This document shows positions 26,662-60,709 of a stretch of 64,000 bases of DNA, one piece after another. This DNA comes from Phycisphaerales bacterium (GTDB lineage Bacteria; Planctomycetota; Phycisphaerae; Phycisphaerales; UBA1924). A model generated the notes under the pieces. The model was not told where the DNA came from. It made no database searches and worked only from the letters and a program-made list of their open reading frames with translations. Position 1 is the stretch's first letter; each line of letters starts with the position of its first letter. Position numbers and translations under genes: made by a program. The stretch covers positions 1 through 64,000 of the forward strand of contig JAFIFZ010000055.1 of assembly GCA_020831775.1 (NCBI GenBank), read 5' to 3'.

Positions 26662-26682
26662 CGCTGAGAGGCTCCTTGGCGC

Positions 26683-31376: not shown

Positions 31377-31898
31377 TCAGCGCACCAGCGGGACCTCGGT
31401 CATCTGCGTGATCTTGCGGTCCCCCTCGATCGCGGGGATGTACTCGCAGACCATGATCCCAAAGCGGGGCAGATCGCCTTCGAGCTCCTCACGGACGACG
31501 CGGAGCTTGAGGGGGTACTGGATGTTCCCGTTAAACATGCTCTCGGCCTTGGCCAGGACATCGGCCCTGACGATCCAGTCGGCGATGAGCTCGGCGCTGG
31601 GGTCGAACAGGCGGAAGTAGAGGTCGCCCCGCGCCGGGACGCCGGCGAAGATGTCCCCGTCGCGGGCGAAGAGGATGATGGTGAAGTCGAGCCGGTCGAC
31701 GAAGCCGTCGCGGTTCCGGTCCTCGGCGCCGTTGAAGATCATCTCCATCGTCTGGGGACGGAGGCTTCGCAGGCGTCGTTCGTCGAGCACGCGCGGGCCC
31801 TTGGGCTCGGGCGTGGCGCACGACTGGCACAGCACCCCCGCGATCAGCAGCAACACAACTCCCAAGGCTCGCTTCACGGTTTGCTCACTCCCTGTCAT
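31377..31898 (-). CDS. Lipoprotein overlapping the giant secretin (candidate secretin accessory)
   Basis: 173 aa; the lipobox LCQSC lies about 27 residues in (VLLLIAGVLCQSC). A likelier start is the GTG at 31877, but the ATG at 31898 overlaps the end of the giant secretin frame by 14 bases, which points to translational coupling. The mature protein has an EF-hand-like loop, DRNRDGFVD, directly followed by a beta strand, then a domain with YFRLFDPSAELIADW. No homology is recognised. Position and lipidation are what one expects of a pilotin-type protein that delivers a secretin to the outer membrane, but the sequence does not match known pilotins. Confidence 0.65.
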   Translation of the reverse strand: MTGSEQTVKRALGVVLLLIAGVLCQSCATPEPKGPRVLDERRLRSLRPQTMEMIFNGAEDRNRDGFVDRLDFTIILFARDGDIFAGVPARGDLYFRLFDPSAELIADWIVRADVLAKAESMFNGNIQYPLKLRVVREELEGDLPRFGIMVCEYIPAIEGDRKITQMTEVPLVR

Positions 31899-34800
31899 CG
31901 TCGCCCCCCGACCACCAGCCCCCGCCAGACCTCTGGGCCGGTTGCTCCTGCGTTTCCTGCCCGGGCGACGGCAGCCTCCGGGTCGGCTCGATCAGCATGC
32001 CGCCCTCGCCCCGCTCGGGCCTTGCGATACCCGGGCGGACCTCGGGGATCTCCTTGCGCGATTCACGGTCGAGGATACGCCGCACATTGGCGACGGCGGC
32101 CATCCGGTCGATCGAGACATCCGAAAGCACCCGCTGCTTGGCGACATCCTCGGGCTTGGTGCCGTGGATGACGCGGGGGGTCAGGATGACCAGAAGTTCT
32201 GTCTTCACGCTCGAACGGAGGTCGGTCTGGAAGGCCCTGCCGAGGATCGGGATATCCCCGAGGATCGGCACCTTGGTTCTGCGTTCCTGGTCGGTGGTCT
32301 GGATCAGCCCGCCGATGACGACGGTCTGCCCGTCCTTGACGGTCACGATTGTGTCGACGAGGCGCTGGGTGATGATCGGCGACTCGAAGTCTTCGCTGAT
32401 CCGGGTGGTGCGCTGGCTGACCTGCGAGATCTCGGGGTTGATCTCCATGCGGACGAAGCCATCGGGGCTGATCGTGGGCGTGACATTCAGGATGATGCCC
32501 ACATCCCTGCGGGAGACATTCGCGCGGGTTCGGCCGGATTCGAAGGTCTCCACATCATCGATGATCGCGATGTTCTCGCCGACCTGGATGACCGCCGGCT
32601 CGTTGTTGGTGACGGTGACCTCCGGGCGGCTGAGCACTTCGAGCCTGCCCTGCTGCTCGAGCGAGCGGATCAGCAGGCCGAAGTCCTGCGAGGCGACCGA
32701 GAGGTTCGGCACGCCCAGCGCCGTCGCGACCGCGACGCCCGCGGGCGCAGAGCCGATGATGTAGTCTTCGCCGCCGAACGGGCCGACCTCGATGTCCATC
32801 CCCCAAGTCTGCTCCTGGTCGATCGTGACCTCCGCCAGCAGCACCTGGATGACGACCTGCGGCGGGGCCGCGTCGAGCTCCTCGACGATCCTCCGGACCG
32901 ACTCGATGTACCTCGGAGAGGCGGTGATGACCAGCTTGTTGGACTTCTCGTCGCCGACGACCGTCACCTCCTGCTCGAGTTGGCGCGACAGGGCGCCGAG
33001 TTGGTCGTCGCGCAGGGTCTCTCGGATCCGGACCGACTCCTCGCGGAAGAAGTTCGTGAGCGTCGTCTCCATCTCCAACGCCTTGGCGTTACGGAGGTGA
33101 TAGACGAAGCGTTCGCGCTCGGTCGCCTCGATGTTGTCGAGGCTTTCGATGACATTGCGGACCAGATCGAGATACTCCTCGGTCCCTGAGACGAGCAGCG
33201 TGTTGGTTCGCGGGTCGATGGTGATCGCCAGCTCCTGGCGCTCGTCGGGCACGGGGGTGACGCGCGTTGCGTCCAGCAGGGACGGGCCCTGCTCATCACC
33301 GACGAGGTCGGCCGACTGCGTCGGAATCAGCACGAGGCGGTTGCCCTGCTGCTGGAGATTGAACAGGTCGCGAAGGACACCCCGCATCGCGCCCGCGTCG
33401 GCGTTCTGGAGGCGGAAGACCTCGATCTTGCGGTTGCCCGCGGTGGTGCTGTCCAGGTCGTCGATGATCTCCTCGATCAGCGACATGATCTGGGGCGGCG
33501 CCGCGACCAGCACCGAGTTGGTCCGCAGGTCGAAGGTCAGGCGGACCTGATCACGGATCGCGCCGTCGATCTGCGCCTCGCTGGGCGCTTCGCCGATCTC
33601 CGTCTCGATCCGCGAACGCAACTGGTTTCGGAAGAACCGCACGCGCGTCGCCTGCTGGGCGGCGATCGAGCCCTGGCCGCCCCCGATCGGGCGACCGGCC
33701 AAGATCGTCTGGAGCAGGTTCACGACCTCGATCGCGTTGGCGGTGCGGAGCTCGATCCGCCGGATGTCCTGCTCGGTGCGGATCTCGCCCGCGTCGAGCT
33801 GCACGACCAGACGCCGGATCTCGCCGATGTCGTTCTCGCTGCCGGTGACGACCAGGGCGTTGAGGCGGTCGTTGGCCATCACGCCGACCGAACCCGCCCC
33901 GCGGCGCTGGTTCTCACGCCGCACATACATCTCGTTGATCGCCTGGGTGATTTCGCCCGCCCGGCCCCGATCGACATACAGGATCTCGGTCTTCTGCCCG
34001 GTCGTTCGTTCGGCGTCGCCCGTAGCCAGGGCGCGGATGAGCTCGCGGACCAGCCGCAGGTTTTCCTCGCTCGCGGCGACGATCAGCGAGCCCGTCGCCG
34101 GCTCGGGCTCGATGCGGAACGCGTCGGAGGGCGACTGGGGCACGCCGGCGCGCCGCGTCGCCTCGATGCGTTCGGCCACAAGGCGCTGCAGTCGCGGCGC
34201 CAGCGCGTTCACATCGGTATCGGGCACCGCGATCACATGCAGACCGACCGCGTCGGTCGCGTGCTCGCGGTCGAGCGTGTCGAGCAGCCCTTCGAGAATG
34301 TCCAGGCTCCGGCGGCTGGTCGAGACGATCAGGGCGTTGGTCCGGAGATCGGCCTGCACGACCACGCGGTCTTCGGGCCTCGCCTCTCCCACGCGCTCGC
34401 GCTCGGTGAAGACCTGGCGGACGATCTGAGCGACGCGGTCGGCCGCGGCGAACCGGAGCGGGAAGACCCGCACCTCGTTGCTCGCTGAGGCGGCCTCGAC
34501 ATCGAGCATCGAGACCAGCTCACGCACCGCGTTCACATTGGCCTCCGAGCCGACCACGATCAGCGCGTTCAGCTGTGTTTCTGGCGTGATGAGCAGGCCC
34601 GACAGCGGCGCGACGAGATCGGTCTCGGCGAACTGCGATGGGTCGGTCGGGTCGCCGCCCGCCTGCAAGACGCGGAGGCGTCCGACCTGGCGACGCAGCG
34701 CTTCGGCCTCGGGCGTGCGCCCGACGCCGGTCACGAGCACCTCGCTGAGCTTGGCGGCAAGCCTCGTCGGGTCGGCGTGCTCGACGGGGATCAGCGTCGT

Positions 34801-37800
34801 CTCGACCCAGCGCCCGCCCTCGTCGCTGTCCATGTCGCGGATGAGCACCTCGACGAGCGCGACCGCTTCCTCACGACCGGCGACGATGAGCGCGTTGGTG
34901 CGCTCGTCGACGGAGACGGCGATTTCGCCGGCGAGGGCTCGGCCGGTAGCAGTGGTCGGCTGGCCCCGGCGCTGCGTGCCGGGCAGGCGGCGCAGCGCCT
35001 CGCCCTGGCGGAAGACCTCGTCGATGACGCCGCGGAGGCGCGAGGCCGAGGCGTTCTTGAGCGGGAAGATGCGGACGACGACCGCGTCACCGATCGGGAG
35101 CGTGTCGAGCATCTTGACGACGCCCTTGAGCGCCTTGACGTTCGCCTCGCTGGAGGCGATGACGATGGCGTTGGACTGCCCGTGCTCCTGCAGACGGATC
35201 GGCACGGAAAGATCGAGCTCGGCCGCCGGCTTGTCCCAGCGGTCGGCGGCGATCGAGAGCCTGCGGATCTGCTCGACCAGCGAGCGGGCCGGCGCCGCGC
35301 CCGTGGTCTGGTCCTCGGGGTTGAGCATGCGCCGGAGCGTCTGCACGACCGCCGAAGCCTCCGCGAGCTTGAGGGGCACCACTTCGACGAACTGGTCCGC
35401 CCCCGCCGGCTCGGCGTCCATCGCCCTGACGAGATCGGCGACGGTCTCGGCGTCGCGCGTGTCGGCGACGACCGCCAACGCGCGCCGGGAAGTCATCGGG
35501 ATGATGGCGACGGGCTCTGTGACGAGCCCCGCCTGGCCCGCTGCGGGCTCGCGCGTGACGCCCATCTGCTCGAGCAGGCGCCGGATCTCGGCGGGCTCGT
35601 TGTGCTCGATGTCGATGATGAGGACGCCTCGCCCGGGGGCGCCGCCGCCGCCACCGATACCGCCCAGCTCGCGCACGACCGCTCGGACCTGTTCGAAGAT
35701 GTCCTCGCTGGAGGAGACGACGAGGCTGTTGCTGGCGCGGTCGACCTCGATCGCGAAGATCTCGCCGCGGCGTTGGGCGATGGGGCCGAAGCTGCGGGCG
35801 ACGGTGTCGCGCATGCGTGCGGCCGAGCCCTCGCCGACCGCCAGCACGCGCGGGAGCGCCCCGCTCTCGCCGGACATCGCACCCAGCGACTCGACAAGCG
35901 ACTCGATCTGGGCGAACTGCGTCTCGTCGGCGCGGACGAGGATCACGCCCGCGTCGTCGTCGCCGATCACCTGCACAGAGCGCGTGCCCCCGCCCGCATC
36001 GACGCGCGAGGCGAACATCGAGCGCACACTCTCGGCGATCCGCGTCGGGCGGCCCGAGCGCACGCGGATGATCCGCGGCTCGGGAAGCTGCAGCACATCG
36101 GGCACATCGAGCCGCTCGACGATGCGCTCGATGCGCTCGAGGTCGGGGCGCGAGGCGAAGACGATCAGCGCGTTGCTCTGCGCCTCGGCGGAGACGATCG
36201 GCGTCTCCTCGCCCGAGACGAGGACGGGGATGTCGAAGAAATCGCGGTCGTCGCGCGTGCGCTGGCGGTCGCGCTCGCGCTGCAGGCGTTCGCGATCGAC
36301 CTGGCGGTCGAGCGTCGCCCTGAACGCCTCGCTCAGCGAGCGGGCGACGCTCCTCGCGTCGGCGTGGCGGAGGGGGATCACCGCGAGCTGACGCGAGGTG
36401 TCATACTCCTCGGTGTCGAGCTGGTCGAGCAAAGCGGAGATGCCCGGCCACTCGGGCTCGTCGGCGCTGATCACCAGGGAGTTGGAGGCCGGGTCCGGAA
36501 CGATCGTCACACGCTTGGCGCCGGGCGTGGCGGCCTCGGGGGCAAAACGCCCGTAGAAGACCTGCAGCGCGTCGGCGATCTGCTTGGCGTCGGCGAAGCG
36601 GAGCTTGACGAACTCGGTCCGGCGGTCGCCGTCGGGCGCGACATCGACCGCCGTGATGATCTCCTCGATCTCCTCCATCTGCTCGGGCGTGGCGGAGACG
36701 GCGATGGTGTTGTCGGTGGGGTTGAAGTCGAAGGCGGGCCGGGGCTCGCCGGCGCCGTAACGCCGGTCGCGGAACATCGCGTTGAGCGTGAAGCGGACAT
36801 CGTTGGCCGTCGCGTTCTGCAGCGTGAAGCGCCGGAAGCGGACAAGGCTGCGTGCCGGCTCTGTGTCGAGCTTCTCGACCTGCTGCATCACCAGATCCAC
36901 CGCCTCGCGCGAGCCGCTGAGCACCAGCGCGTTGCTGCGGGCGACGGGTGTGATCCGTACCTTGATGTTCTCCGGCAGCGACGCGCGCACGGCGGCGGCG
37001 ACCTCGGTGGCGCTGGCCGAATCAAGCGGGACGGTCACGAAGGTGACATCGTCGGAGGTCGGCGCTCTGTCGAGCTCGGTGATGAGCGCTCGCACGCGGT
37101 CCTCGATCGTCTCGGGAACAGACACGATCAGCGAGTTGGTGCTCGGCTGGGGCGTGACGATGATCCGTTCCTCGCTGCGGGTTGCGGGGAACATCTGGCG
37201 CACGGCTTGGGCCGTCTCGTTCGCCTGCGCGTTGCGCAGCGTGTACACCTCGACGAGGCGGTGGTCGCCCAGTTCGGGCTGGTCCATCTGCGCGACCAGA
37301 TCGCGGACGATGCGGAGGTCGTCTTCGGGCGCAGCAACGATGAGTATGTTGCCGTCGGGCGAGCCGAGGACGGAGACCGCGCTCTCCGACCCGTCGATCT
37401 GCGCCCGGCCCTGGAAAAACCGCTGGAGGCTGCCCGCGGCCCTGCCCGCCTGGGCGTGGCGCAGCGTGATCGTCTCGATCTTCACGCCCTCCCGCTCGGC
37501 GGAGGCGTCGAGTTCCTTGATGAACTGCTCGGCCTCGTCGACGCGTTCGGCCACGCCGACGAGCAGCAGCAGACGCCGGCCCCGATCGACCTGCACCTGC
37601 ACCCGCTGAGGGTCTGTGCCCTGCCACGGACGCCAGCCGGGCGTCGAGAACGCCTCCTGGATCAGGCCCCGCACCGCGTTCAGGTCCACGCGCTCGGCGC
37701 GCACGGCTCTGACGATCCGCCTCGCTCCCTCGTCGGGCGCGCTGTCGAGCATACCGACGACGCGCTCTGCCGTCGCCAGCAGGTCGCCCTGGCCGAGCAG

Positions 37801-40800
37801 CATCACGGTGTTGGAGCGCTCAACGGTCGAGATATACAACTGCTCGGCGTCGGGCTGGGGCTGGCGACCCCAGAGCCGCTCGGCCTGCAGGTTCCAGACC
37901 AATTCATCGAGCGTCTGCTGGATCTCCGACACCCGGATGTTCTCAAGGCGGACCATCCGAATGTCGAGTTGGCGGGCCTCCGCCGGCTCGTCGAGGGCCG
38001 CGGCCATCGCCTCCACCTGGGCGAAGTCGTCTTCCGAGGCCGCGACGATCAGGGTCCCGCTGCGTCGGTCGCCAAAGACGGCCACCCCGCCGCTGGCCCC
38101 GCGTTCGCCGGCCCTGGTCCGGTCGCGGAAAAACTGCTGCAGCGACTGGGCGACGGTCTGGGCGTTCGCCCGTTCAAGCCGGATGGTGCGGAGCGGGAAG
38201 CCCCCCGTCTCCGCCTCGTCCAGCCGCTCGATGAGCGCCGAGGCTTGGGCGATTTCCTCAACTGTTGCGCGCACGACGACAACGCTCGAAGCGTCCTCGG
38301 CGGTGATCCGGATGCGGTCGCGCCGCGCCTCGTCACGCCCGATGAGCACCTGCTCCAGCACGCGACGCACCGACGACGGGGACGCCTGCTTGAGCGTGAA
38401 GACCTCCGTCACCGAACCGTCGTCGGCGAGGCTCGTGTCGGTCTCGTCGAGCAGGCGACGCACCTCGGCGTGCTGCTCGTCAGACGCCGTCACCAGCAGT
38501 GTGTTGGTCCGCTCGTCGACGAAGAACCTTGCTCGCGGCGACTGCCTCGACGCGGCGTCCTGGCGCTGCGCGTCGAACAGCCCCTGCATCGTGCCCGAGA
38601 GCCGCCTCGCGTCGGCGTTTTCGAGCGTGTAGCGCCGGATCGACATCCTGTTCTGCGCCGGGCTCTGATCGATCAGCGAGACGAACGCGTCGATCAGTTC
38701 GAGGCTTTCGGGCGGGGCCGACACGATCAGCGAGCCCTGCCCGGGATCGCTCATCACAAAGACCGTCGCCGGGTCGACACTCCCCCGCACCCGGCCCTCG
38801 GGCCCGTCGACCGTCAGGTCCAGCTCGCGCAGGCGCCTCGCCTGGCGACCCCGAGGCTGCGGGCTCAGAAAATCACGCACCGCCGAAACCGCCTGCGGCC
38901 CCTGGATGTTGCTGAGCGGATAGATCTTGACCGTGCGGCTCTCCCCCGCTCCGGCCCGAGCGATCGACGCGATCAGCGTGCCCAAGACCTCAAAGTCCGT
39001 GTCGTTGGCCCACACGATCACCGCGTCGCCCGCAGGGTCGGCCGTGATGCCCACGCGACCGGTAAAGCCCGCGGGGTTCTGATCGCTCGCCCGCCCGACT
39101 TGGCCGACCGTCTCGCGCACGACGCCGACGATGCCGCGCGCGTCGACCCCGTCGGGCAGACCGATCACGCGGACCGCCGTCGGCTCCGGCGGGAGTTGGT
39201 CCTGAAGCTCGCGCGCGAGTTCTGCGACGCGATCGGCGAGCCTCGACGAACCGACGACGAGCAACGCGTTGGTCACGGGATCGACGGCGATCGTGACCGA
39301 CACGCCCTTCTCATCACCCGTCCCATCGCTGGCCCTGTCGCCGTCAGACCCGCCACCCGGAGAAGGCTCCGGATCGTCGTCGCCTTCGTCGTCACCCTCG
39401 GTCTCGATCGAAAGGCCGAAGACCGCGGCCTCCATCAGCCGGTGCAGCCAGTGCGTGCCCTCGACGCCGAGAGGCTCGTCAATAGGAGCGTTGATCGAGC
39501 CGGGCCCGCGCCGCTCCTGGCGCCGCAGCAGTTCCTCGGCGCTGATGACCTCAACACGGACGCTGGAGTCGCGTTCGAGCAGGCTGCGGAGCGTCTGGGC
39601 CATCACCTCCGCGTCGGCCCTCGAACGGTCGACACGGATCGTCCGCAGCGATCGCCCGGCCCTGACCGTCGCGTCGTCGAGCTGGCCCGCGACGCGTTCG
39701 ATCCGCCGGATCTGCTCGCCCGTGCCGCGCACCACCAGCGCGTTGGCCGAACGGTCCACCCGCACCGAAGGCGGGGTCGTTGTCTCGTCGTCGAACAGGC
39801 CTTCAAGGCTCGCCGCCAGCTCCGAAGCGTCGGCGTTGATCACTGGCAGCACGCGGATCTCGCGGTCCTCGCGCTCGGCCGTCTCGGTGGTGTCCAGCTC
39901 GCCGATCACTTGCTCGGCCAGCGCCAGCGTCCCGGCCGGGCCGGAGATCACCAGCGCGTTCAGGCGGGGCTCGGGGGCCACACGAACCGCCTGCTCGCGC
40001 GGCTGGCGGCGCTCACGCAAAAGCTGAATCCGCGCCCACTCGGGCACCAAATCAAGATCAGATTCCTTCGCCAGCACACGCTCGACCAGCGGCGCCAGCG
40101 TCTCGGCCCTGGCGTGACGCAGGAATACCGTCCGCACGCCGACGCCGTCGGCGTCCACGGCGATGTCCATCTCGCCGATGAGCGCCCGCGCCTCGGCGAT
40201 CTGGTCGGAGGTGCCCGAGAGCACGACCGAGTTGCTCGCCCGCTCGGCGCTCACGCGGATCTCCGGCCGCCCGGGACGGGCCGCGCCGCGCATCGCTTCA
40301 CCGATCGCGCTTGCGACCGACTGCGCGTCGCCCTGGCGGAGGCGGACGACCCGCACCTCGACCACGCCCTGCTGGCCCGGCCGATCGAGCGTTTCGATCA
40401 GCTCCCTGGCCAGCGGCATCATCGGCGTCGGCACGCTCACGAGCAGTCGGTTGGCCCCGCCTTGTGTGTCGGCGTTGACCGCCGGCTCGGTCAGGCGGAC
40501 GCCCGCGCTCTCCAGCCGCCGCAACGCCTCGGGCCACCGCGAACGATCGGCGAGCAGTCGCGAGACCGTCTGCGCGACCTGCTGCGCATCGGCGTGTTCC
40601 AGTTCGTACAGCCGGAACTCGACGGGCGGGACCGAGGGCGTCCGATCGTCGAGGTCGCTCAAGACCGCCAAAGCCTCGGCCGCCTTGTCCGCCGGAGCGA
40701 CGACCACGATCGCCCCGCTGCCCGGCTCGGGGATCAACTCGACAACGCTCCGCCCATCCATCGCCGAGGCGAGCACGCGATCGGCGGTGCGCACGAGGTC

Positions 40801-43800
40801 CGCGGCTCTGGCGTTCGTCGGGGTGAAGGTCAGGACCGTGCGCTCGCCGTCGGGCGAGGGCGAGTCCAGCCGCTTGATGATCGCCTCTGCGAGCTCGACG
40901 GTCGCCGCGGGGCCAGAGACCATCAGCGAGTTGGTGCGTGCGTCGGCCTCGACACCGATCGGCGTGCGCTGGGGTAGCTGGCCCCGTGTCAGCCGGATGC
41001 GCTGCAGCATGAGCGCCGGGTCGTTGGCGGCCTGGTCGACCAGCAGGCGTTCGACTGTCCGCCGGATGCCCTCCGCGTCGGCGTGCTGGAGGGCGAAGGT
41101 CTCGACCCGGACCGCCTCGGCATCGCTGGGGCGTCTGTCCAGAGGCTCGATCAACGCCTCGACGCGGTCGAGGTCGGCTTCGAGACCGGTCAGCACGATC
41201 GCGCCCGAGCCGGGCGCCGCGACGACGCCCACGCGCCCGCCGCTGGGCAGGTCGGTGTTGGGCAGCGTCTGGTTGAGCGTGCGTCCGATCTCTGCGGGGT
41301 CGGCGTAGCTGAGGGGGACGACGCGGATCGACTCGCGACCGGCGCCCGCGTGCTCCTGATCGAGCGAGCGGAGCAACTGCTCGGCCACACCGTGGACAGA
41401 CTCGGGCGCGGAGATGATCAGCGTGTTGGACGCCGGGTCGGCCGCGACTTCAAGCAACGAGTCGGCGGCGCGTCCGCCCCGATCCAGCTCCTCCTCGCGG
41501 ATGCGCGTGACCAGCAAACGCTCCATGAGGGGCTGGAGGCGGTCGGCCCGCGCGTGGGCCAGCGCGTACATGCGCACGGTTGTATCCGGTCGCTCCGGTC
41601 TCGCGTCAAACCCGTCGAGCACCTTCTCGACCTGCGCGAAGATCTCCGATGGTCCGCTGACCACCAGCGTGCGGCTGCCCGGCTCGGTCTCGACCGTCAC
41701 CGGCGTCTGCCCCGTCGCCCCGAGCGCCCCGCCGCTGGCGAGCTGGCGGACGGCTTGGGCGGCCCGGTCGAGGTCAGCGCGTTCGAGGCGGTAGGTGCGC
41801 AGCTCGACATCGGCGGCGAGCTGGTGCTGGTCGAGGCTCTTGACGAGCTGCTCGAACCCCGCCAGGCGCTGCGTGGGCGCGTCGACGATCAGCGAGTTGG
41901 TCGCGCGATCGGCACGGACCACGACCTCCTTGGGCTGGGCGAGGTCGGGCCGGGGCTGGCGATTGCGCGGATCGATCGGGATCGGCGGCGCCGGGAACAT
42001 CTGGTCGATCGTTTTGGCGAGCTCTTCGGCCCGGGCCACCTTCAGCGGGAAGATGCGGATCTCGCGACCGTCGGCGTCGAACGACTGCTGCTCGTTGAGC
42101 TCGTTGACCACCGCCTCGATCTCTGGCATGAGCTCGGGGTGCGCCGAGACCATCAGCGCGTTGGTCGAGCCGTCGGCCTGCACCGCCACCGGGCGACGCG
42201 CGCGGTCGTCCTGCGGGCGACGGTCGAAGTTCTCCTGCAGCATCGACGCGACCGCCACGGCGTCAGTCGAACGCAGACGCAGGATCCGCAAGGGCGGACG
42301 GTCTGCCGACTCCTGTCGGTCCAGCCCCCGCACAAGCTGGTCGATGATCGGCATCTGCGACGAGCTCGCGGCGATCAGCAGCGTGCTGGTGCCCTCGATC
42401 GGCTCGAAGACCGGCGCCGGCCCGCCCTCGATCCGGAGCGTCTGGCTCGTCGAGGCGAGCGATCGCAGCGCCTCTGCCGCCTCGGCCGGATCGGCGTAGC
42501 GCAGCTCGATCAGACGCGACTGGCGCTTGGGCCCGGCCTGGGCCTGGAGCTGCTCGACGACGCGCATGAAACGGTCCAGCGCCTCGCGGTCGGCGACGAC
42601 CTGCAGCGCGTTGTTGCTCTCGTCCACGGAGACCTCGACCTCGCCCGCGTCGGGGATCTGGCGGACCTGGGCCTCGTAGATCTCGACGGCGCGCCGGCGG
42701 ACATCGGCCGCGTCGGCGTTGACGACCGGCACGATCCGCACCTCGCGCTCGACGGGGACCGCCGAGAGGTCGCGCAGCATCGCCTCGACCCGCTCGAAGG
42801 TGATTTCGTCGCCGGCGACGATCAGGGTCGAGCTCCGCGGCTCGGCCTCGATCACCACATCGGCGGTGCGACGCCCCGCCTCGCGCGGCGCAGACAGATT
42901 CCCGCTACGGGCGAGACCCTGCAGCGTCCGGGCGACTACCTCTACATCCGCGCCGACGACGCGGAAGGTCCGTAGTTCGGCGCTCGGAGGCGTCTGCACG
43001 CGATCGAGCTTGGCGGCAAGCTCCTCCAGCGACGAGATCCGCTCCGCCGGCGCGTCGATGATCAGCGAGTTGCTCGACGGGTCGGCCGAGACCTGCACCT
43101 CGCGCTCCTGCTGCAGCCAGGGCATCGGGCGCCCCTGGCGGTCCAGTGGGACCGGGGGCGTCGGGTACAGCCGGTCCATCGCGCGGGCGACATCGTCTGC
43201 ACGCGCGACCTGGAGATTGAACAGCACTGTGACTCGCTCGGGCCCCTCGCGTCCCTCGTCGTTGAGGCGTTCGACGAACGACTTGATCTCGTCGAACAGC
43301 TCCTCGTGGGCGGAGACGATCAGCGTGTTGGTCGACGCGTCGGCACGCACCTGCACCGGGCGGGCCGAACGCTCCGCCTGCGAACGCTGCTGGTACTGCG
43401 AGTGCAGCATCGACGCGATCGCGTTGGCGTCGGCGGCTCGGAGCTGCAGCAGACGCAGCGGCGGCAGGTCGCTCTGCTCGACGCGGTCGAGACGACGCAC
43501 AAAGTCGCGGATCACATCGTGCTGCGCCGGCTCGGCGGTCACCAGCAGGGTGTTGGTCCGCTCGACAACGCGGAGCCCGGGCTCGGGGATCGCCCGCGAG
43601 GGGTCGGTCGGGCCGGAGGCTTCCAGGAGCTCGCGCAGCGGGCCGACGATCTCCGACGCCTCGACATGCTGGATCTCGAGCATCCGCGTCGTTCTGTCCG
43701 GAGGGAGCAGTCGCTGGGCCTGCTCGACCGCCTGCGCGTACAGACGCAGCGCCTCGGGGCGGGCCGAGATGAGCAGGCTGCCCGAGGCCTCGTCGACTTC

Positions 43801-45699
43801 GAGCGAGATCTCGCCGAGGTCCTCGCGTCCCTCGGTCATCCGCGCGTAGAGCGCCGAGGCACGGTCGGCGATCTTCGAGGCCTCGCCCCGCGCCACACCG
43901 ATGACACGCAGCTCGCGCTCGGCGGGACGGTCGGAGTCCAGCCGCTCGATCAGCGACTCGATCACGCCGAACTGCTCGGGCTCGGCCCGGACGATCAGCG
44001 TGCCCAGCTCGTCCATCGCCTCCAATGAAGGCGGGCTGAAGGACGAGCCGTCGGTCGGGCGCAGCATCGCCGGCGCGAGGCGATCGATCCGCGTCGCCAG
44101 CTCCGAAGGGCGGCTGACGCGTGGCTCGTAGGTCCGGACCTCGGTCTGGGGAGGCGTCGACGCCTCGATCGATCGCAGCAATTCCTCGAACGCGCGGATC
44201 TGCTCGCGCGCGCCGATCAATGTCAGCCGCCCGCTCTCGGGCTCGAGGTTCACCGCAAGCGACTCGGCGCCTTCCGGATCGCTCTCGGCCAGAAGGCCCG
44301 CGGCTCGCTCGACGAGGTCCGGGGCCGAAGCCCGCTCCAGCCTCAGCACACGGACCTCGCGCCGGATCTCCGGCTCGGTGTCCAGGCCCCGCACGAGGCG
44401 TTCGAAAGCGTCCACATCGCCCGCCGGCCCCGTCACGACAATCGCCCGGCCCGTCGGCGCCTGCGCCATGCTCAGCGCCCGGCGTTGGCGGGGCGAGAGC
44501 AGCCGCTGGGCGATCGCTTCGATCCGGGTCGGGTCGGCGTGCTGGAGGGGGACGACCCGCGAGATGCGCGTGGAATCGGCGTCGCGTTCGGTGTTGTTGT
44601 CGGCTTTCGGATCGAGCTCGCCGATCAGGGCCGTCGCCTGGAGCAGGAGCGCTCGCGGGCCGACGATTGTCAGCTTGTTGACCTCGTCCATCGAGAGCAC
44701 GGTCGGGCGCCGGTTCTCGGGCACGGCCCGGAAGAGCGCCTGCACGCTGGTCATCGCCTCGCGGCTGGTGACCGACTGCAGTTCGAAGGTCACCATCTCC
44801 CGCTCGCCCTCGCCGATGTCCGGCGCGTCAAGCAGGGCGACGAGTTCATCAACTGTTTCCAGCCGCTCGCGCGGGCCCACGGCGATCACCGAGTTGGTCC
44901 GCTGATCGGCCTGGAGGCTGACGCCCCCGAGCCCGAGTTCCTCGCGTTCGGTCCTGCGGTTGCCCTGGACCTCGATCACGATCTCGCGCCGGGCGATCAG
45001 GCCGGTGAGCGCCTTGACGACCTCGTCGGCCCGCGCGTGCTGGAGGGCGAACAGACGCGTGTCGGAATCGACCGTCCGCTCCGCGTCGATGGCGCGGATC
45101 ACCCGCCCGAGGCGTTCGGCCTGGGCCGCGGTCTCGATCAGGATGACCATGTTCTGGGCGGTGATCGGCGTGATGCTGCCGTACTCGCCCACGAGGGGGG
45201 CGAGCTGCTCGGCGACCGCCGAAGCCCGCGCGTTGCTGAGCGGGATGTTCACCGTCACGATGCGGTCGGGGGTGATCCCCTCTGGCGCCTCGCCGTCGAA
45301 GACCGGCGTCGGGCGCCGGAAGGCCTCCTTGAGGCTCGACAGGTAGAGGTAGTTCTTCTCGCGCCGGAGGTGCACGCTCTGGTGGGCGAGGTTGAGGTTG
45401 AGGATGCTCAGGGCCTCTTCGAAGGGGAGGGCCTCGCCGCTGAGGAAGGTCATCGACCCGCGCGGGACATCCGTCTCGCGGATGATCGGCAGGCCGGTCT
45501 CCGTCGAGAAGAAGTCCAGCACATCGCGGAAGGGGACTTCCTGCAGCGTGAACCTGACCGGCCCGGGCTTGATCGGCTCGGACTCGGTCGATTCCAGGGC
45601 TGTCGGTTCCGGTTCGGCGTTCGCCACCGATGCGGGCATGCCCGCGATCGCGGCGAGAACCAACGCGGCGACAACGCCATTGGACCGGTGCTGTTCCAT
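31885..45699 (-). CDS. gspD: Giant secretin with about fifty tandem N1-like domains
   Basis: 4604 aa, one uninterrupted frame. The ATG at 45699 has AGAGGAG 7 bases upstream; a start at 45756 is less likely. A signal peptide (VVAALVLAAIAGMPASVANA) is followed by an N0-like domain, then about 50 copies of an 65-110-residue domain in the array 32868-45270. The copies share the pattern V-x-hydrophobic-x3-AxA, a helix with L-x2-L, then VxVxAD-x-R-TN-x-LIV-x-AP, and end with E-x-LI-x2-LD. This is the secretin N1/NolW fold. One C-terminal secretin pore domain follows (32160-32867), with DVGIILNVTP, VKDGQTVVIGGLI and VPILGDIPILG. The C-terminal tail is proline/glycine/aspartate rich. Usual GspD proteins are 600-800 aa with four N domains. 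The gene is followed by a lipoprotein and preceded by pilP/O-like genes. Function inferred: outer-membrane channel of the gsp/pil machine with an extraordinarily long stalk. Confidence 0.85.
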   Translation of the reverse strand: MEQHRSNGVVAALVLAAIAGMPASVANAEPEPTALESTESEPIKPGPVRFTLQEVPFRDVLDFFSTETGLPIIRETDVPRGSMTFLSGEALPFEEALSILNLNLAHQSVHLRREKNYLYLSSLKEAFRRPTPVFDGEAPEGITPDRIVTVNIPLSNARASAVAEQLAPLVGEYGSITPITAQNMVILIETAAQAERLGRVIRAIDAERTVDSDTRLFALQHARADEVVKALTGLIARREIVIEVQGNRRTEREELGLGGVSLQADQRTNSVIAVGPRERLETVDELVALLDAPDIGEGEREMVTFELQSVTSREAMTSVQALFRAVPENRRPTVLSMDEVNKLTIVGPRALLLQATALIGELDPKADNNTERDADSTRISRVVPLQHADPTRIEAIAQRLLSPRQRRALSMAQAPTGRAIVVTGPAGDVDAFERLVRGLDTEPEIRREVRVLRLERASAPDLVERAAGLLAESDPEGAESLAVNLEPESGRLTLIGAREQIRAFEELLRSIEASTPPQTEVRTYEPRVSRPSELATRIDRLAPAMLRPTDGSSFSPPSLEAMDELGTLIVRAEPEQFGVIESLIERLDSDRPAERELRVIGVARGEASKIADRASALYARMTEGREDLGEISLEVDEASGSLLISARPEALRLYAQAVEQAQRLLPPDRTTRMLEIQHVEASEIVGPLRELLEASGPTDPSRAIPEPGLRVVERTNTLLVTAEPAQHDVIRDFVRRLDRVEQSDLPPLRLLQLRAADANAIASMLHSQYQQRSQAERSARPVQVRADASTNTLIVSAHEELFDEIKSFVERLNDEGREGPERVTVLFNLQVARADDVARAMDRLYPTPPVPLDRQGRPMPWLQQEREVQVSADPSSNSLIIDAPAERISSLEELAAKLDRVQTPPSAELRTFRVVGADVEVVARTLQGLARSGNLSAPREAGRRTADVVIEAEPRSSTLIVAGDEITFERVEAMLRDLSAVPVEREVRIVPVVNADAADVRRRAVEIYEAQVRQIPDAGEVEVSVDESNNALQVVADREALDRFMRVVEQLQAQAGPKRQSRLIELRYADPAEAAEALRSLASTSQTLRIEGGPAPVFEPIEGTSTLLIAASSSQMPIIDQLVRGLDRQESADRPPLRILRLRSTDAVAVASMLQENFDRRPQDDRARRPVAVQADGSTNALMVSAHPELMPEIEAVVNELNEQQSFDADGREIRIFPLKVARAEELAKTIDQMFPAPPIPIDPRNRQPRPDLAQPKEVVVRADRATNSLIVDAPTQRLAGFEQLVKSLDQHQLAADVELRTYRLERADLDRAAQAVRQLASGGALGATGQTPVTVETEPGSRTLVVSGPSEIFAQVEKVLDGFDARPERPDTTVRMYALAHARADRLQPLMERLLVTRIREEELDRGGRAADSLLEVAADPASNTLIISAPESVHGVAEQLLRSLDQEHAGAGRESIRVVPLSYADPAEIGRTLNQTLPNTDLPSGGRVGVVAAPGSGAIVLTGLEADLDRVEALIEPLDRRPSDAEAVRVETFALQHADAEGIRRTVERLLVDQAANDPALMLQRIRLTRGQLPQRTPIGVEADARTNSLMVSGPAATVELAEAIIKRLDSPSPDGERTVLTFTPTNARAADLVRTADRVLASAMDGRSVVELIPEPGSGAIVVVAPADKAAEALAVLSDLDDRTPSVPPVEFRLYELEHADAQQVAQTVSRLLADRSRWPEALRRLESAGVRLTEPAVNADTQGGANRLLVSVPTPMMPLARELIETLDRPGQQGVVEVRVVRLRQGDAQSVASAIGEAMRGAARPGRPEIRVSAERASNSVVLSGTSDQIAEARALIGEMDIAVDADGVGVRTVFLRHARAETLAPLVERVLAKESDLDLVPEWARIQLLRERRQPREQAVRVAPEPRLNALVISGPAGTLALAEQVIGELDTTETAEREDREIRVLPVINADASELAASLEGLFDDETTTPPSVRVDRSANALVVRGTGEQIRRIERVAGQLDDATVRAGRSLRTIRVDRSRADAEVMAQTLRSLLERDSSVRVEVISAEELLRRQERRGPGSINAPIDEPLGVEGTHWLHRLMEAAVFGLSIETEGDDEGDDDPEPSPGGGSDGDRASDGTGDEKGVSVTIAVDPVTNALLVVGSSRLADRVAELARELQDQLPPEPTAVRVIGLPDGVDARGIVGVVRETVGQVGRASDQNPAGFTGRVGITADPAGDAVIVWANDTDFEVLGTLIASIARAGAGESRTVKIYPLSNIQGPQAVSAVRDFLSPQPRGRQARRLRELDLTVDGPEGRVRGSVDPATVFVMSDPGQGSLIVSAPPESLELIDAFVSLIDQSPAQNRMSIRRYTLENADARRLSGTMQGLFDAQRQDAASRQSPRARFFVDERTNTLLVTASDEQHAEVRRLLDETDTSLADDGSVTEVFTLKQASPSSVRRVLEQVLIGRDEARRDRIRITAEDASSVVVVRATVEEIAQASALIERLDEAETGGFPLRTIRLERANAQTVAQSLQQFFRDRTRAGERGASGGVAVFGDRRSGTLIVAASEDDFAQVEAMAAALDEPAEARQLDIRMVRLENIRVSEIQQTLDELVWNLQAERLWGRQPQPDAEQLYISTVERSNTVMLLGQGDLLATAERVVGMLDSAPDEGARRIVRAVRAERVDLNAVRGLIQEAFSTPGWRPWQGTDPQRVQVQVDRGRRLLLLVGVAERVDEAEQFIKELDASAEREGVKIETITLRHAQAGRAAGSLQRFFQGRAQIDGSESAVSVLGSPDGNILIVAAPEDDLRIVRDLVAQMDQPELGDHRLVEVYTLRNAQANETAQAVRQMFPATRSEERIIVTPQPSTNSLIVSVPETIEDRVRALITELDRAPTSDDVTFVTVPLDSASATEVAAAVRASLPENIKVRITPVARSNALVLSGSREAVDLVMQQVEKLDTEPARSLVRFRRFTLQNATANDVRFTLNAMFRDRRYGAGEPRPAFDFNPTDNTIAVSATPEQMEEIEEIITAVDVAPDGDRRTEFVKLRFADAKQIADALQVFYGRFAPEAATPGAKRVTIVPDPASNSLVISADEPEWPGISALLDQLDTEEYDTSRQLAVIPLRHADARSVARSLSEAFRATLDRQVDRERLQRERDRQRTRDDRDFFDIPVLVSGEETPIVSAEAQSNALIVFASRPDLERIERIVERLDVPDVLQLPEPRIIRVRSGRPTRIAESVRSMFASRVDAGGGTRSVQVIGDDDAGVILVRADETQFAQIESLVESLGAMSGESGALPRVLAVGEGSAARMRDTVARSFGPIAQRRGEIFAIEVDRASNSLVVSSSEDIFEQVRAVVRELGGIGGGGGAPGRGVLIIDIEHNEPAEIRRLLEQMGVTREPAAGQAGLVTEPVAIIPMTSRRALAVVADTRDAETVADLVRAMDAEPAGADQFVEVVPLKLAEASAVVQTLRRMLNPEDQTTGAAPARSLVEQIRRLSIAADRWDKPAAELDLSVPIRLQEHGQSNAIVIASSEANVKALKGVVKMLDTLPIGDAVVVRIFPLKNASASRLRGVIDEVFRQGEALRRLPGTQRRGQPTTATGRALAGEIAVSVDERTNALIVAGREEAVALVEVLIRDMDSDEGGRWVETTLIPVEHADPTRLAAKLSEVLVTGVGRTPEAEALRRQVGRLRVLQAGGDPTDPSQFAETDLVAPLSGLLITPETQLNALIVVGSEANVNAVRELVSMLDVEAASASNEVRVFPLRFAAADRVAQIVRQVFTERERVGEARPEDRVVVQADLRTNALIVSTSRRSLDILEGLLDTLDREHATDAVGLHVIAVPDTDVNALAPRLQRLVAERIEATRRAGVPQSPSDAFRIEPEPATGSLIVAASEENLRLVRELIRALATGDAERTTGQKTEILYVDRGRAGEITQAINEMYVRRENQRRGAGSVGVMANDRLNALVVTGSENDIGEIRRLVVQLDAGEIRTEQDIRRIELRTANAIEVVNLLQTILAGRPIGGGQGSIAAQQATRVRFFRNQLRSRIETEIGEAPSEAQIDGAIRDQVRLTFDLRTNSVLVAAPPQIMSLIEEIIDDLDSTTAGNRKIEVFRLQNADAGAMRGVLRDLFNLQQQGNRLVLIPTQSADLVGDEQGPSLLDATRVTPVPDERQELAITIDPRTNTLLVSGTEEYLDLVRNVIESLDNIEATERERFVYHLRNAKALEMETTLTNFFREESVRIRETLRDDQLGALSRQLEQEVTVVGDEKSNKLVITASPRYIESVRRIVEELDAAPPQVVIQVLLAEVTIDQEQTWGMDIEVGPFGGEDYIIGSAPAGVAVATALGVPNLSVASQDFGLLIRSLEQQGRLEVLSRPEVTVTNNEPAVIQVGENIAIIDDVETFESGRTRANVSRRDVGIILNVTPTISPDGFVRMEINPEISQVSQRTTRISEDFESPIITQRLVDTIVTVKDGQTVVIGGLIQTTDQERRTKVPILGDIPILGRAFQTDLRSSVKTELLVILTPRVIHGTKPEDVAKQRVLSDVSIDRMAAVANVRRILDRESRKEIPEVRPGIARPERGEGGMLIEPTRRLPSPGQETQEQPAQRSGGGWWSGGDDDRE
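32160..32867 (-). other. Secretin pore domain of the giant protein
   Basis: This segment encodes the single secretin (beta-barrel gate) domain. Landmarks in order are PPQVVIQVLLAEVTID, RLEVLSRPEVTVTNNEPAVIQVG, SRRDVGIILNVTPTIS, VRMEINPEISQV, TIVTVKDGQTVVIGGLIQ, VPILGDIPILGRAF and LLVILTPRVI. All are family-typical and in the right order, so the pore should be functional. There is no obvious S-domain beyond it, only a disordered tail. Confidence 0.85.
39660..41587 (-). repeat. Region of alternating long and short domains (period two)
   Basis: Eight domains R17-R24. Odd ones (R17, R19, R21, R23) carry an extra 15-20-residue insertion before the last strand, such as LMLQRIRLTRGQLPQRTPIG and ARIQLLRERRQPREQAV. 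Even ones lack it and run 64-68 residues. The pattern suggests growth by two-domain units. Confidence 0.6.
41587..43921 (-). repeat. Five-domain higher-order duplication inside the array
   Basis: Domains R7-R11 (43921 to about 42751) and R12-R16 (about 42750 to 41590) match one to one in order. Both units are about 388-390 aa long. Correspondences include PPLRLLQLRAADANAIASML with PPLRILRLRSTDAVAVASML, and MDRLYPTPPVPLDRQGRP with IDQMFPAPPIPIDPRNRQ. This indicates a single duplication of a five-domain block. Confidence 0.7.
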
Positions 45700-45773: not shown

Positions 45774-46769
45774 TTACGGCGCTGGACGCCGGTTGGCCAG
45801 CGTCCGGTTGAGGGGCACGACAAAGCGGTCCCCGTCGATCTCAAACCATGCTCCGCCCGAAACATCTGCGCCCACCAGCCTCGCCCCGAACAGCGAGTCG
45901 CCAACCGACAGGCTGCGGGTCGCGGGGCGATCGCCATCGAGCATGACCACCACGCGAAGCTCGGTCCCCTCGAAAATCCCCGCGACGCGCCAACGCTCCC
46001 AGCGTGGGGGAGGCGGAGGCGGCGCGGGCTGTTCCGCGGGCGGGTCTTCCTGAGCCACCTGTGTCTCGGGCTGGGGCGGGGGCGGCGGCGGGCGGAACCT
46101 GTTGACCGAGGCCAGACGCAGCCTCGCCTCAGCCCGAGTCGGGTCTTCCTGGACCACCTCGCGTTCGGCCTCGCCGGCGAGGCGGGGTTCGTAGAGGGCG
46201 GTGATGTCGGCCCGGACCTCGAAACGCCGTCGCTCGTCGCCGATCGGGCGGATCGACCACTGCGGGATCGAATCGACCCAGGGCTGGGACTCTAAAAGAG
46301 AGATCAGGTGGGCGAGGGTCTCGTGCCCGCCCTGGCCGGTGACGCTGGCGCGGAAGACACCGAAGTCCGGGCGTTCTTCCAGGCGTCTTGCGATCAGGCG
46401 TGGGGCCTCGCCGCTGAGGCGGGCGTTCGCGAACGGATTGGCCTGGCCCCGCGGGGGGTTGGTCGAGACGCTGATGCGTTCGAGCCCGGCCGTCTCGGCG
46501 GCTTCTCGCAGGAGGAGGCGGAGCCGGTGGTCGGCCTCGTCGGGCTGGCCCCCGAGCATGCCCTCGGAGAACAACGCGAACCTTCGCCGGAGATCCGAGC
46601 CCTGGGCGAGGCGGGCCTCGAACTGGGCGTTCTGGTTGTCCTTGGTCTCCAGCTCGCGGAGGATGCGATCGCGCGGGGCGACATACCACGAGCTGTACGC
46701 CCGCCAGCCGAGCAGGGCGGCGAAGCAGACGACAATCAGCCAGATGATCGGGGTGCGCCAGCGTCTCAT
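45774..46769 (-). CDS. PilO/GspM-like protein fused to a PilP/GspC-like secretin-binding domain
   Basis: 331 aa. The ATG at 46769 overlaps the preceding TGA (ATGA). One membrane helix at about 8-28 is followed by a coiled, charged region and a ferredoxin-like GspM/PilO domain (about 80-200). A proline-rich linker (226-257, PPPPPP and PAPPPPPP runs) leads to the C-terminal 60-residue domain GIFEGTELRVVVMLDGDRP...SLSVGDSLFGARLVG, which has the look of the PilP/GspC homology-region domain that docks on secretin N0. In PilMNOP systems PilO and PilP are separate proteins. The gene is followed 74 bases later by the giant secretin. Confidence 0.6.
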   Translation of the reverse strand: MRRWRTPIIWLIVVCFAALLGWRAYSSWYVAPRDRILRELETKDNQNAQFEARLAQGSDLRRRFALFSEGMLGGQPDEADHRLRLLLREAAETAGLERISVSTNPPRGQANPFANARLSGEAPRLIARRLEERPDFGVFRASVTGQGGHETLAHLISLLESQPWVDSIPQWSIRPIGDERRRFEVRADITALYEPRLAGEAEREVVQEDPTRAEARLRLASVNRFRPPPPPPQPETQVAQEDPPAEQPAPPPPPPRWERWRVAGIFEGTELRVVVMLDGDRPATRSLSVGDSLFGARLVGADVSGGAWFEIDGDRFVVPLNRTLANRRPAP

Positions 46770-48328
46770 TGCTCGTCCTCCGTGTCCTTGTCGGGGATCG
46801 GAGCGACCAGCCCCGAGCGGAGGTTGAGCGTGAAGGCGCTGCCGGTGTCGGGGCCCTGGGTCGAGACTCGGTAGCCCCCGCCGGCGATGAGCATCGACCG
46901 CTGGCGTTCGAGCACCGAGGCCCCCGCCTCGCCCCTGGGGATGGCGGAGATGCTGACGCGGACCTCGCGTCCGGTATTCCACTGTCCGTCGAGCGGGCCG
47001 CCCCCGCGCCGGGGGGCGTACGAGAGCTCCGAAGTGGCGCTGCCCTGGAGCTGGCTGAGCAGGAGCTCTTCGGTCGAGAGCATCCTTCTGGAGATCCAAT
47101 CGAGGTGGGCCATCCAGTCCGGGGCCAGCCCGGCCCGGGCTTCGAGGTGTTCGACCCGGGCCTGGAGGAGGAGCTGTTCGATGTACCGCTCGGTGTACTC
47201 GCGGTTGGTGTCGTTCACGACCGAGAGCCGGGCGTTCAAGCGCGAGAGCTCTTGGTTGGCGAAGACCCAGCCCCCGCCCCCGAGGACGATCAGCCCGAAG
47301 CCGGCGGCCAGCGCGCCCATGCGGTACTTCGCCGAACGGTCGGGGCCCTTGCGGGGATCGAGGAAGTTCAGCAGCCTCGGCTGCGGGGCGACCGCCAGGC
47401 CGATGAGCGGGAGCAGCCTCGCCAGTTCGGCGTCGGCGGGGCCGTTCTTCGGGTCGATTTTGATCCAGCCGGGGAGCCCGACGGCCCGGGAGGCGACGCC
47501 GATCGAATCGCCGCAACGCTCGGCGACGCGCGACGCGATCCCGTCTGCCCCGAGCACGAGCACGGCTTCTGAAACGCCGGGCTCTGAAGCGCTGCGTGCC
47601 GCGACCCATGTCCGCCTCGCCTCGACAGCAAGTCGGGCGGCGAAGCGATCGCGAGACTCGGCGTCGTCGGTCTCGGGCGTGCGGACCTCGCCGGGGCGCG
47701 CGGTGACCAGCCGCCCACCGGTGATCCAGGCGAACTCGGTCGAGCTCGGGAGCACGGCGATGGCGAGGACCGACCCATCGAGCGCTTCGGGCTCGCGCCC
47801 CGCCAACTCAAGCATGCCCAGCGTGCGCAGACTGATCGCGGCGGGCTTGATCCCCGCGGCTTTGGCCATCTCTTTGAAGAAGGCCATCCTGGGTCCGGTG
47901 ACCGCGGCGGCGAGCACGGCGGGGCCGTCGCCGGCCTCGGCTTTCTCGCCCTTTTCCCGCTTCTTTGCCGCATCGAGCGGGATGTAATCGATCGAGGCCT
48001 CTTCGAGCCCGACGGCGAGTTGGCGGTGCAGTTCGAGTTGCACAACGCCCGGCACCTCGTCTTCGCGCACGCCCGGCGGGCAGACGACGCGCTTGAGCAC
48101 CGCCTCGCGCCTGGGGAGCGAGATGAGAATGCGTCCGCGCTTTGCGGCCTTGCCCATGCATTCGGAGATCCATCGCCCCATCGCGCCGGCGTCGGAGGGG
48201 TCCAGCCCCTCGGGCCTGGCCACCGAGGCCCACGAACGCAACACGCACGACTTGCCCTTGCGCACGATTGTCGCGACCGTCAGGCGGTCGTGGTCGAGGT
48301 CGATGACTGTTGTCGACTTTGCGGCCAT
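46766..48328 (-). CDS. PilM-PilN fusion (GspL-like)
   Basis: 520 aa. The N-terminal 310 residues look like a PilM/GspL actin-like cytoplasmic domain (STTVIDLDHDRLTVATIV start, ILISLPRREAVLKRVV, a central segment GPAVLAAAVTGPRMAFFKEMAKAAGI). At 320-327 the LLNFLDPRK motif, typical of the PilN/GspL junction, is followed by a membrane helix (about 336-358, GALAAGFGLIVLGGGGWVF), a coiled coil and a PilN-like periplasmic domain. In type IV pili PilM and PilN are two proteins; GspL combines them. It starts 3 bases after gspK and overlaps the next gene by ATGA. Confidence 0.65.
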   Translation of the reverse strand: MAAKSTTVIDLDHDRLTVATIVRKGKSCVLRSWASVARPEGLDPSDAGAMGRWISECMGKAAKRGRILISLPRREAVLKRVVCPPGVREDEVPGVVQLELHRQLAVGLEEASIDYIPLDAAKKREKGEKAEAGDGPAVLAAAVTGPRMAFFKEMAKAAGIKPAAISLRTLGMLELAGREPEALDGSVLAIAVLPSSTEFAWITGGRLVTARPGEVRTPETDDAESRDRFAARLAVEARRTWVAARSASEPGVSEAVLVLGADGIASRVAERCGDSIGVASRAVGLPGWIKIDPKNGPADAELARLLPLIGLAVAPQPRLLNFLDPRKGPDRSAKYRMGALAAGFGLIVLGGGGWVFANQELSRLNARLSVVNDTNREYTERYIEQLLLQARVEHLEARAGLAPDWMAHLDWISRRMLSTEELLLSQLQGSATSELSYAPRRGGGPLDGQWNTGREVRVSISAIPRGEAGASVLERQRSMLIAGGGYRVSTQGPDTGSAFTLNLRSGLVAPIPDKDTEDEQ

Positions 48329-49933: not shown

Positions 49934-50613
49934 GCGTCACCCTCCGCCGCGTCGGGGATGGCGATGATGCGGAGGCGGTCGGGGCGGCGTGTCGGGGGCG
50001 GACGCTCTTCGACCGGCATGTCGTCGAACTCGGGCTCGCGGGGCTGGCCGTTCTCGAACCAGACGGCGATCTCGACGGCGACCGGCAACCGGCCGGCCTG
50101 CACCGTGTTGAACTCGCTGCGCCAAGCGCTGCCGTCGTGATAGCGAAGCCGAAGGCGCCGCACGCCGGCGGCGATGATCTGGGGCTGCGTTCCAGCGCTG
50201 GCGATCGAGGCGTCGCGTGCCGAAGCGCGGACGCGCCCGCTATCAGAAGAGAACCGGATTTCGAGTCGCTGCAGGTCGCCCGGCGCGATCAGCCCGCGGG
50301 CGGGGTCGGGCACGGTGACCGAGCGGCAGAGCACCACGATGGATTCCTGCGTGCCGTCGATGCCGGGTTCTTCGCCCGGGCCGGCGACCATCGTCGTTGA
50401 GAGCGCCCGCTCAAGGGCCTCAACCATCCGGTTGCCAGAGTCGAACTGCTCGGCCGAAGTCAGCAGGCGGTCGCGCCCGCTCATCAGGTCGCCGATGAAG
50501 TTGCCGATCCCGACCGCCAGGGCGGCCCCGATGCCGATCGCCAGCAGGACCTCGAGCAGCGTCATGGCCCGTCTGCGGCGCAGCCGGTGGATGATGGAAG
50601 GCCGAGTGTTCAT
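49930..50613 (-). CDS. gspJ: Minor pseudopilin GspJ
   Basis: 227 aa. The prepilin leader ends RRRAMTLLEVLLAIGIGAALAVGIG, so the cleavage residue is Ala rather than Gly, with Glu at +5. The body is the GspJ type, with many short beta strands and SIASAGTQPQIIAAGVRRLRLRYHDGSAWRSEFN near the middle. The ATG overlaps the gspI TGA and its own TGA overlaps the gspK ATG, so four pseudopilin genes form a chain of ATGA overlaps. It forms the pseudopilus tip with GspI and GspK. Confidence 0.8.
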   Translation of the reverse strand: MNTRPSIIHRLRRRRAMTLLEVLLAIGIGAALAVGIGNFIGDLMSGRDRLLTSAEQFDSGNRMVEALERALSTTMVAGPGEEPGIDGTQESIVVLCRSVTVPDPARGLIAPGDLQRLEIRFSSDSGRVRASARDASIASAGTQPQIIAAGVRRLRLRYHDGSAWRSEFNTVQAGRLPVAVEIAVWFENGQPREPEFDDMPVEERPPPTRRPDRLRIIAIPDAAEGDA

Positions 50614-51793: not shown

Positions 51794-51834
51794 GGTGCTC
51801 CTGCACGAGAGGTCTCGTTGAAGCCGTGAGAGAA

Positions 51835-52341: not shown

Positions 52342-52406
52342 GTTCGGCTCTCCGTAACCCTTGTGGGTCGGGCGGGGCCGGATCCGTCGGGCCCCAAGGT
52401 TAGTGG

Positions 52407-52435
52407 ATACTACATTGGGGCGAGCGATTTCGCAA
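52407..52435 (-). promoter_or_regulatory. Candidate sigma-70 promoter upstream of gspG
   Basis: TTGCGA and TAGTAT separated by exactly 17 bases, each matching the consensus hexamer at four of six positions. It sits 66 bases before the gspG ATG in the 109-base gap after gspF, so gspG and the genes after it may be transcribed independently of gspF. Confidence 0.4.
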
Positions 52436-52450
52436 GCCCCTGACATGTTC

Positions 52451-53638: not shown

Positions 53639-53758
53639 GAAAGAACCCCAGCAACACCGGGACCCGATACAGCGACCGCCCGCCGCGCCTTCCGTAGCCC
53701 GGCGGACGCCGTTGGTGTCCGGGTCCGGATGATCCTACCGGCCAGGTTCCTTCAGGAT

Positions 53759-54403: not shown

Positions 54404-54453
54404 TCGGGGTACTCCTGGTCGGCGCTGGATTCGGGTGTAGACCACCGACCGAT

Positions 54454-60687: not shown

Positions 60688-60709
60688 GGGGCGCGCCGAC
60701 CTCGGCGGG

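Follow-up and report, generated by a model that had tools for sequence, protein, structure and literature searches.

Textbook secretins possess about three to six periplasmic rings. Known members assemble from 12 to 19 copies, with their N domains forming stacked rings (PMC5745081). The PilQ of Thermus thermophilus, a secretin lengthened with extra N rings for a wide periplasm, displays six rings, measures 35 nm in all and has been described as among the largest (PMC5745081). The GspD proteins of E. coli, V. cholerae and K. pneumoniae (PulD), channels of about 650 aa, encompass three N1-like domains. In planctomycetes, the periplasm can be greatly enlarged and convoluted (PMC5394234).

The stretch of DNA analyzed here (64,000 nucleotides from a Phycisphaerales bacterium, contig JAFIFZ010000055.1, hereafter the window) encoded a secretin of about 4600 aa with 50 such domains. 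The pore domain, the fold of the N domains, the operon partners and, as far as profile matches in orthologues indicate, the N0 domain were shared with the GspD of E. coli, V. cholerae and PulD, while the number of N1-like domains, the length and a large mid-array insertion set the giant apart. Compared with T. thermophilus PilQ, a type IV pilus secretin, the sequence match was much weaker and the domain number far higher (50 domains vs six rings; PMC5745081), so that the claim of a first-pass annotation that this array exceeds those of known secretins was upheld. The secretin family itself is already known, the new features being its tenfold extension, the deep conservation of the array and its natural split.

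Gene, domain content and family assignment

The minus-strand frame was open from position 45756 to 31885 (4623 codons), while the plus strand contained stops over 31885-45699. The likely start codon was the ATG at 45699, preceded by AGGAG, which gives a giant GspD-type secretin gene at 31885..45699 on the minus strand with a product of 4604 aa. The continuous frame reported by the first-pass annotation, which had not stated the strand, was therefore recovered with the same length and coordinates. The protein contained 500 Arg vs 46 Lys residues, had a net charge of about -178 and displayed no Cys past the likely start.

The N-terminal region (45579..45699, minus strand; MEQHRSNGVVAALVLAAIAGMPASVANA...) was assigned as a putative signal peptide by eye rather than by a dedicated predictor, from its hydropathy (peak of 2.36, the highest in the protein) and from the N-termini of homologues, which were also signal-peptide-like. 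Two homologues (L143 and L176) showed about 430 to 490 extra residues ahead of this segment, their starts being probably overcalled. A putative N0-like domain followed at 45250..45565 (minus strand; about residues 64-168 in the 4623-codon numbering, with the linker that leads to domain 1 counted in). The Pfam profile of GspD N0 (PF21305) was below detection in the window protein, passed its cut-off in one orthologue (L130) and gave weaker, sub-threshold matches in three others (L016, L129 and L127).

The remainder of the protein was dominated by consecutive N1-like (Secretin_N) domains, arranged end to end (32857..45246, minus strand). Pfam Secretin_N scored 1299 bits over 40 separate stretches. 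A profile built from the protein's own repeats and iterated over homologues retrieved exactly 50 domains (residues 171-4300, 24 to 69 bits each), covering 99.5% of the array, and retrieved none in the reversed sequence or in 20 shuffled sequences. The Pfam scan also gave KH matches. A single Secretin pore domain (PF00263; 32167..32661, minus strand; residues 4366-4530 in the 4623-codon numbering) was found, and AlphaFold models compared with Foldseek matched it to GspD. The earlier description of about fifty N1-like domains ahead of one family-typical pore domain was thus accurate, the pore being of the GspD type.

By far the best assignment on sequence grounds is that the gene encodes GspD, the outer-membrane channel of the type II secretion system, in which the N1-type domains would have been extended from about three to 50. 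A GspD-type Secretin domain, N1-type domains ahead of the pore and type II secretion gene neighbors were all present; the typical number of about three N1-like domains, which is not strictly defining, was replaced by 50. With NCBIfam, the C-terminal fragment alone matched GspD best (TIGR02517, 316 bits, thus below the full-length cut-off of 351), ahead of PilQ (185 bits) and SctC (157 bits). Searched against the PDB, a profile of ten mid-array domains was led by GspD (5wq7, E 4.6e-34), while P. aeruginosa-type PilQ reached just 2e-4. The Pfam scan of the giant protein gave no match to AMIN domains, a mark of PilQ. An identity as PilQ, the type IV pilus secretin, was rejected on the lack of AMIN and on the PilQ score, and an identity as SctC/YscC of type III secretion was rejected on the SctC score and the type II secretion neighbors.

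AlphaFold predicted domains 28-37 as ten beta-alpha-beta-beta-alpha units (mean pLDDT of 81) connected by linkers of 5 to 9 residues. The pTM of this ten-domain monomer model was 0.35, so the mutual orientation of the domains is unreliable. The last three domains modeled with the pore had a pLDDT of 74. When the models were compared using Foldseek and VIA-align, GspD chains were at or among the top; Foldseek matched the ten-domain model best to the Deinococcus secretin DR_0774 (PDB 8co1), which differs from the giant in its length (740 aa) and its few N domains. The ring-compatible fold proposed earlier was thereby predicted in the domains modeled, i.e., the ten consecutive ones and the last three with the pore.

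Conservation and distribution of the array

The giant secretin type was present in 80 of the 201 sampled genomes of the order, distributed over five families, and mostly harbored 31 to 53 N1-like domains; shorter frames among the 80 were cut by contig ends, split or frameshifted. Among the home-family genera sampled, most of those with this secretin displayed a frame of about 3300 to 4800 aa. Fifty domains was the modal count there (17 full-length proteins from 15 genera), and the remaining full-length proteins had 51, 48, 47, 46, 45, 41, 39, 36 and 34. Counts in other families were 53, 52, 46, 43, 42, 41, 39, 37, 34 and 32. Named records with the giant were metagenome-assembled Phycisphaerales, one of them a single-contig chromosome (CP054186.1). 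The gene was absent from three described isolates (Phycisphaera mikurensis, Mucisphaera calidilacus and Poriferisphaera corsica). Surveys of huge proteins use a 5000-aa cut-off (PMC11573180), and the giant may have gone unreported so far because these isolates lack the gene and because its length lies near or below that cut-off. No publication on a secretin of such size, on its conservation or on its split was found among open-licence full texts.

Across 343 genomes sampled from the phylum, in which other orders of the same class were sparsely represented, neither frames above about 1500 aa nor arrays of more than nine N1-like domains were found outside the order; relatives there had three to nine N1-like domains. 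The longer of these GspD relatives (1200 to 1500 aa, seven to nine N1-like domains) belong to the same secretin subfamily and are modestly lengthened, but their arrays do not exceed nine domains. Their genomes belong probably to the crater-bearing class Planctomycetia. The link to crater-like surface pits put forward in the first-pass annotation was not sustained, since these relatives carried just seven to nine N1-like domains and described Phycisphaeraceae are without crateriform structures (PMC8882080).

Short GspD of the order and class (L146-L151, 685 to 873 aa) were sister to the giant clade and shared a similar operon, but contained the canonical three N1-like domains, probably the state before expansion. 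A single, fully supported branch separated giants from short relatives, in a tree from which the very long-branched outgroups of a first tree were left out.

Among 50-domain proteins, each window domain best matched the domain of the same rank in 47 to 50 of the 50 cases, at about 50% identity, and position-specific profiles paired domains of equal rank across families f1, f2 and f4. Because of this rank-to-rank match across three families, the array is ancient and maintained domain by domain. Families f2 and f4 had two additional domains between domains 45 and 46. In families f5 and f6, one-to-one matches were limited to the first and last domains, so that the middle of their arrays diverged or expanded separately. 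Paralogue pairs (7/12, 8/13, 9/14, 10/15 and 11/16) marked domains 7-11 and 12-16 as two copies of a five-domain block (41572..43917, minus strand), one copy of which was absent from several homologues; lineages with fewer domains lacked blocks such as 7-11/8-12, 18-21 or 33-34. Judged from these sequence comparisons, the array is old, partly grown by block duplication, with each position kept. A strict ruler for the whole group is unlikely because the number of domains differs widely among related genera (34 to 51 in the home family), and a strict ruler of 50 was rejected on the counts across genera (31 to 53).

Between the window gene and that of a congener, dN was 0.035 and dS 0.286 (dN/dS of about 0.12) over domains 29-50 and the pore. 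Selection on the array, which the first-pass annotation had deduced from the lack of frameshifts and stops, was therefore supported by dN/dS and by the domain order conserved across families, while the open frame proved to be weak evidence for a gene or for selection by itself, because at about 70% GC long antisense frames occur: the window gene contained one of 2066 aa, and a homologue one of 4479 aa. In the gene of the congener (L043), domains 29-32, near its contig end, showed 65 to 86% identity vs 93 to 100% elsewhere, which may reflect recombination, a strain mixture or a variable segment.

A candidate stacked-ring stalk

The reading that we favor, with a probability of roughly 55%, is that of a GspD-type channel of type II secretion whose periplasmic part would consist of about 50 stacked rings, acting as both conduit and spacer. 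Ring formation is the most likely use of the 50 domains because of their fold, the short linkers, the kinship with GspD and the operon. By analogy with known secretins, the subunits would assemble through the pore domain in 12 to 19 copies, each domain position would form one ring, and the short linkers would stack the rings into a stalk, of about 125 to 200 nm for 50 rings according to our own estimate of 2.5 to 4 nm per ring. The N0 end would dock on the inner-membrane platform. As a conduit, the stalk would carry the pseudopilus and cargo, and as a spacer, it would fix the distance between inner and outer membranes at that site. If a block were lost, whole rings would go and the tube would only become shorter, in keeping with the clean block deletions seen inside the arrays. 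Domain 25, which carries the large mid-array insertion, may act as a joint, a gate or an anchor. A more specific version, plausible but held with less assurance, is an unbroken tube in which about 50 rings are stacked over more than 100 nm, built by the same 12 to 19 chains throughout and with a special ring at domain 25; this would be a secretion conduit and membrane spacer of a size without known precedent among secretins. A rigid tube of 100 nm or more is longer than an ordinary periplasm, which counts against a stacked stalk.

Instead, only the few most C-terminal N domains might form rings, with most of the array making 12 to 19 long periplasmic arms that bind partners, substrates or peptidoglycan laterally. 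Identity and rate were distinct at each position (mean identity of 0.30 to 0.73), as expected if the domains bind different things, the AlphaFold domains had no fixed mutual orientation, and the N1 domains resemble KH-like folds, often ligand binders, in agreement with the KH matches. However, the linkers at the modeled junctions were short for flexible arms, the ring-type fold was kept, with GspD N1-N3 as the best match, and the N0-like domain stayed far N-terminal, where the inner-membrane platform must be reached. Such arms are thus considered unlikely.

Operon context, domain 25 and the split gene

The giant gene was the last gene of an intact type II secretion operon encoded on the minus strand. 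The operon included the inner-membrane platform protein GspF (52451..53638; PF00482, TIGR02120 at 272 bits), the conserved major pseudopilin GspG (51835..52458; PF08334) and a GspH/I-like pseudopilin (51152..52006; PF07963, sub-threshold), whose true start appears to be internal because its N-methylation motif sits at residue 73 of the frame. A GspJ-like minor pseudopilin (49930..51228; PF11612 and TIGR01711, sub-threshold) had this motif at residue 217, hence a probably internal start as well, and was accompanied by a GspK-like minor pseudopilin with a helix-hairpin-helix (48332..49933; PF03934, PF12836) and a PilM/GspL-like assembly protein conserved in the operon (46766..48328; TIGR01175, E 5e-4). 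Next to the giant, a putative inner-membrane assembly protein (45774..46757) was called GspM/GspC-like solely from its position and from visual inspection; it displayed one N-terminal membrane segment, a proline-rich linker and a C-terminal HR-like region, gave no Pfam match and was conserved in position across families. The GspE ATPase (55758..57437, plus strand; PF00437 at 438 bits, PF05157 MshEN) was divergent from the F-to-D operon. Minus-strand frames at 55503-57122, 53631-54503, 59590-60603 and 60600-62828 were dismissed as artefacts, either antisense or out of frame. The operon's gene order recurred ahead of giants from other families within the order, and also ahead of the short GspD relatives, where some members were not detected.

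Directly 3' of the giant, a small lipoprotein-like protein of 173 aa (31377-31898, minus strand) could be a pilotin candidate; the search with the window protein matched it at one locus only. PstS, PstC and PstA were encoded downstream of the giant, and Pst genes were found near many home-family loci, but were absent downstream of an f2 giant (L161) and near the short relatives examined. A phosphate-regulon secretion system was therefore rejected, the Pst genes being a family-level neighborhood that does not define the locus. The PstC and PstA frames (1168 and 778 aa; window 24325-30189, minus strand) encoded unusually long permeases with long N-terminal parts.

The machinery might also serve uptake or a long pilus-like fibre, as in type IV pili or competence-like polymer capture, instead of protein secretion. 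Type II secretion systems and type IV pili have these parts in common, the platform gene was called PilM as readily as GspL, and Planctomycetes take whole polymers into the periplasm (PMC5394234). Against this reading, type II secretion was the best classification for the secretin, GspF, GspG, GspJ and GspK, none of the operon genes was assigned as a retraction ATPase, and the source genome also harbored other GspF and ATPase (GspE) sets, along with three other secretins. Uptake or a fibre accordingly seems improbable, somewhat more so than the lateral arms.

Domain 25 (39169..39654, minus strand) contained the largest insertion of the array (162 aa vs about 75), with a weakly hydrophobic segment followed by an acidic/Gly linker. 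The same was true of domain 25 in almost every giant (133 to 162 aa), and the domain with the largest insertion was the 26th from the C-terminus across the home family, with few exceptions. Its hydrophobic stretch was variable among giants, weak in many members and not conserved in sequence, and was followed by an acidic or Gly-rich linker.

In three species of genus g88 (family f2), the giant was split into two adjacent genes exactly inside the domain 25 loop (L167-L169, L180-L182). The first gene supplied N0 and about 20 domains behind a signal peptide, and the second, with a start and a signal peptide of its own, supplied 24 domains plus the pore. The start and signal peptide of the second gene led to the rejection of a programmed frameshift at the split. 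In the first tree, which included outgroups with very long branches, g88 was nested among fused forms, so fission is the likelier event, and an origin of the giant from two ancestral genes fused at domain 25 was rejected; a relic signal peptide inside the domain 25 insertion is possible. The persistence of both halves, each with an export signal, speaks for a need for the N-terminal half and against a need for an unbroken polypeptide through ring 25. At another locus (L170, genome G078), the array extended over three overlapping frames with 26, 19 and 13 domains, probably through assembly frameshifts and possibly as a real three-part split; it was not taken as an evolutionary intermediate.

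The precursor of about 500 kDa could be cut at the hydrophobic segment of domain 25, which would serve as a processing site or as an internal segment resembling a signal peptide; the machine would then consist of two polypeptides, N0 with 24 domains and 25 domains with the pore, an outcome compatible with a stacked tube. The position of the insertion in nearly all giants, its often hydrophobic segment with the acidic/Gly linker, and the g88 genes, broken in the same loop, nested among fused forms and with a second signal peptide, are in line with such a cut. The weak and unconserved hydrophobic stretch and the single open frame of almost all members oppose it, and it is regarded as the least probable of the functional alternatives. 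The proviso of the first-pass annotation that only the last few domains might reach the outer membrane became less likely, since both g88 halves had signal peptides, although internal processing may occur.

An assembly artefact, a chance open frame or a decaying repeat, which a high-GC genome with long antisense frames might suggest, was refuted by the recurrence of this gene type across independent assemblies, in 80 of the order's 201 genomes (including CP054186.1), the domain orthology, the dN/dS of 0.12 and the absence of domains in the controls.

A secretin with ten times the usual number of domains, conserved position by position, thus occurred in many members of the order. If its rings stack, as favored here, it would exceed every other protein conduit of its kind in length and would offer a direct handle on how planctomycetes organize their wide, invaginated periplasm, and the geometry of the cell envelope must accommodate such a tube. 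If they do not stack, the N1 domain would have a second, undescribed use. The clean block differences between species, together with the g88 split, make the relation between length and function directly testable.
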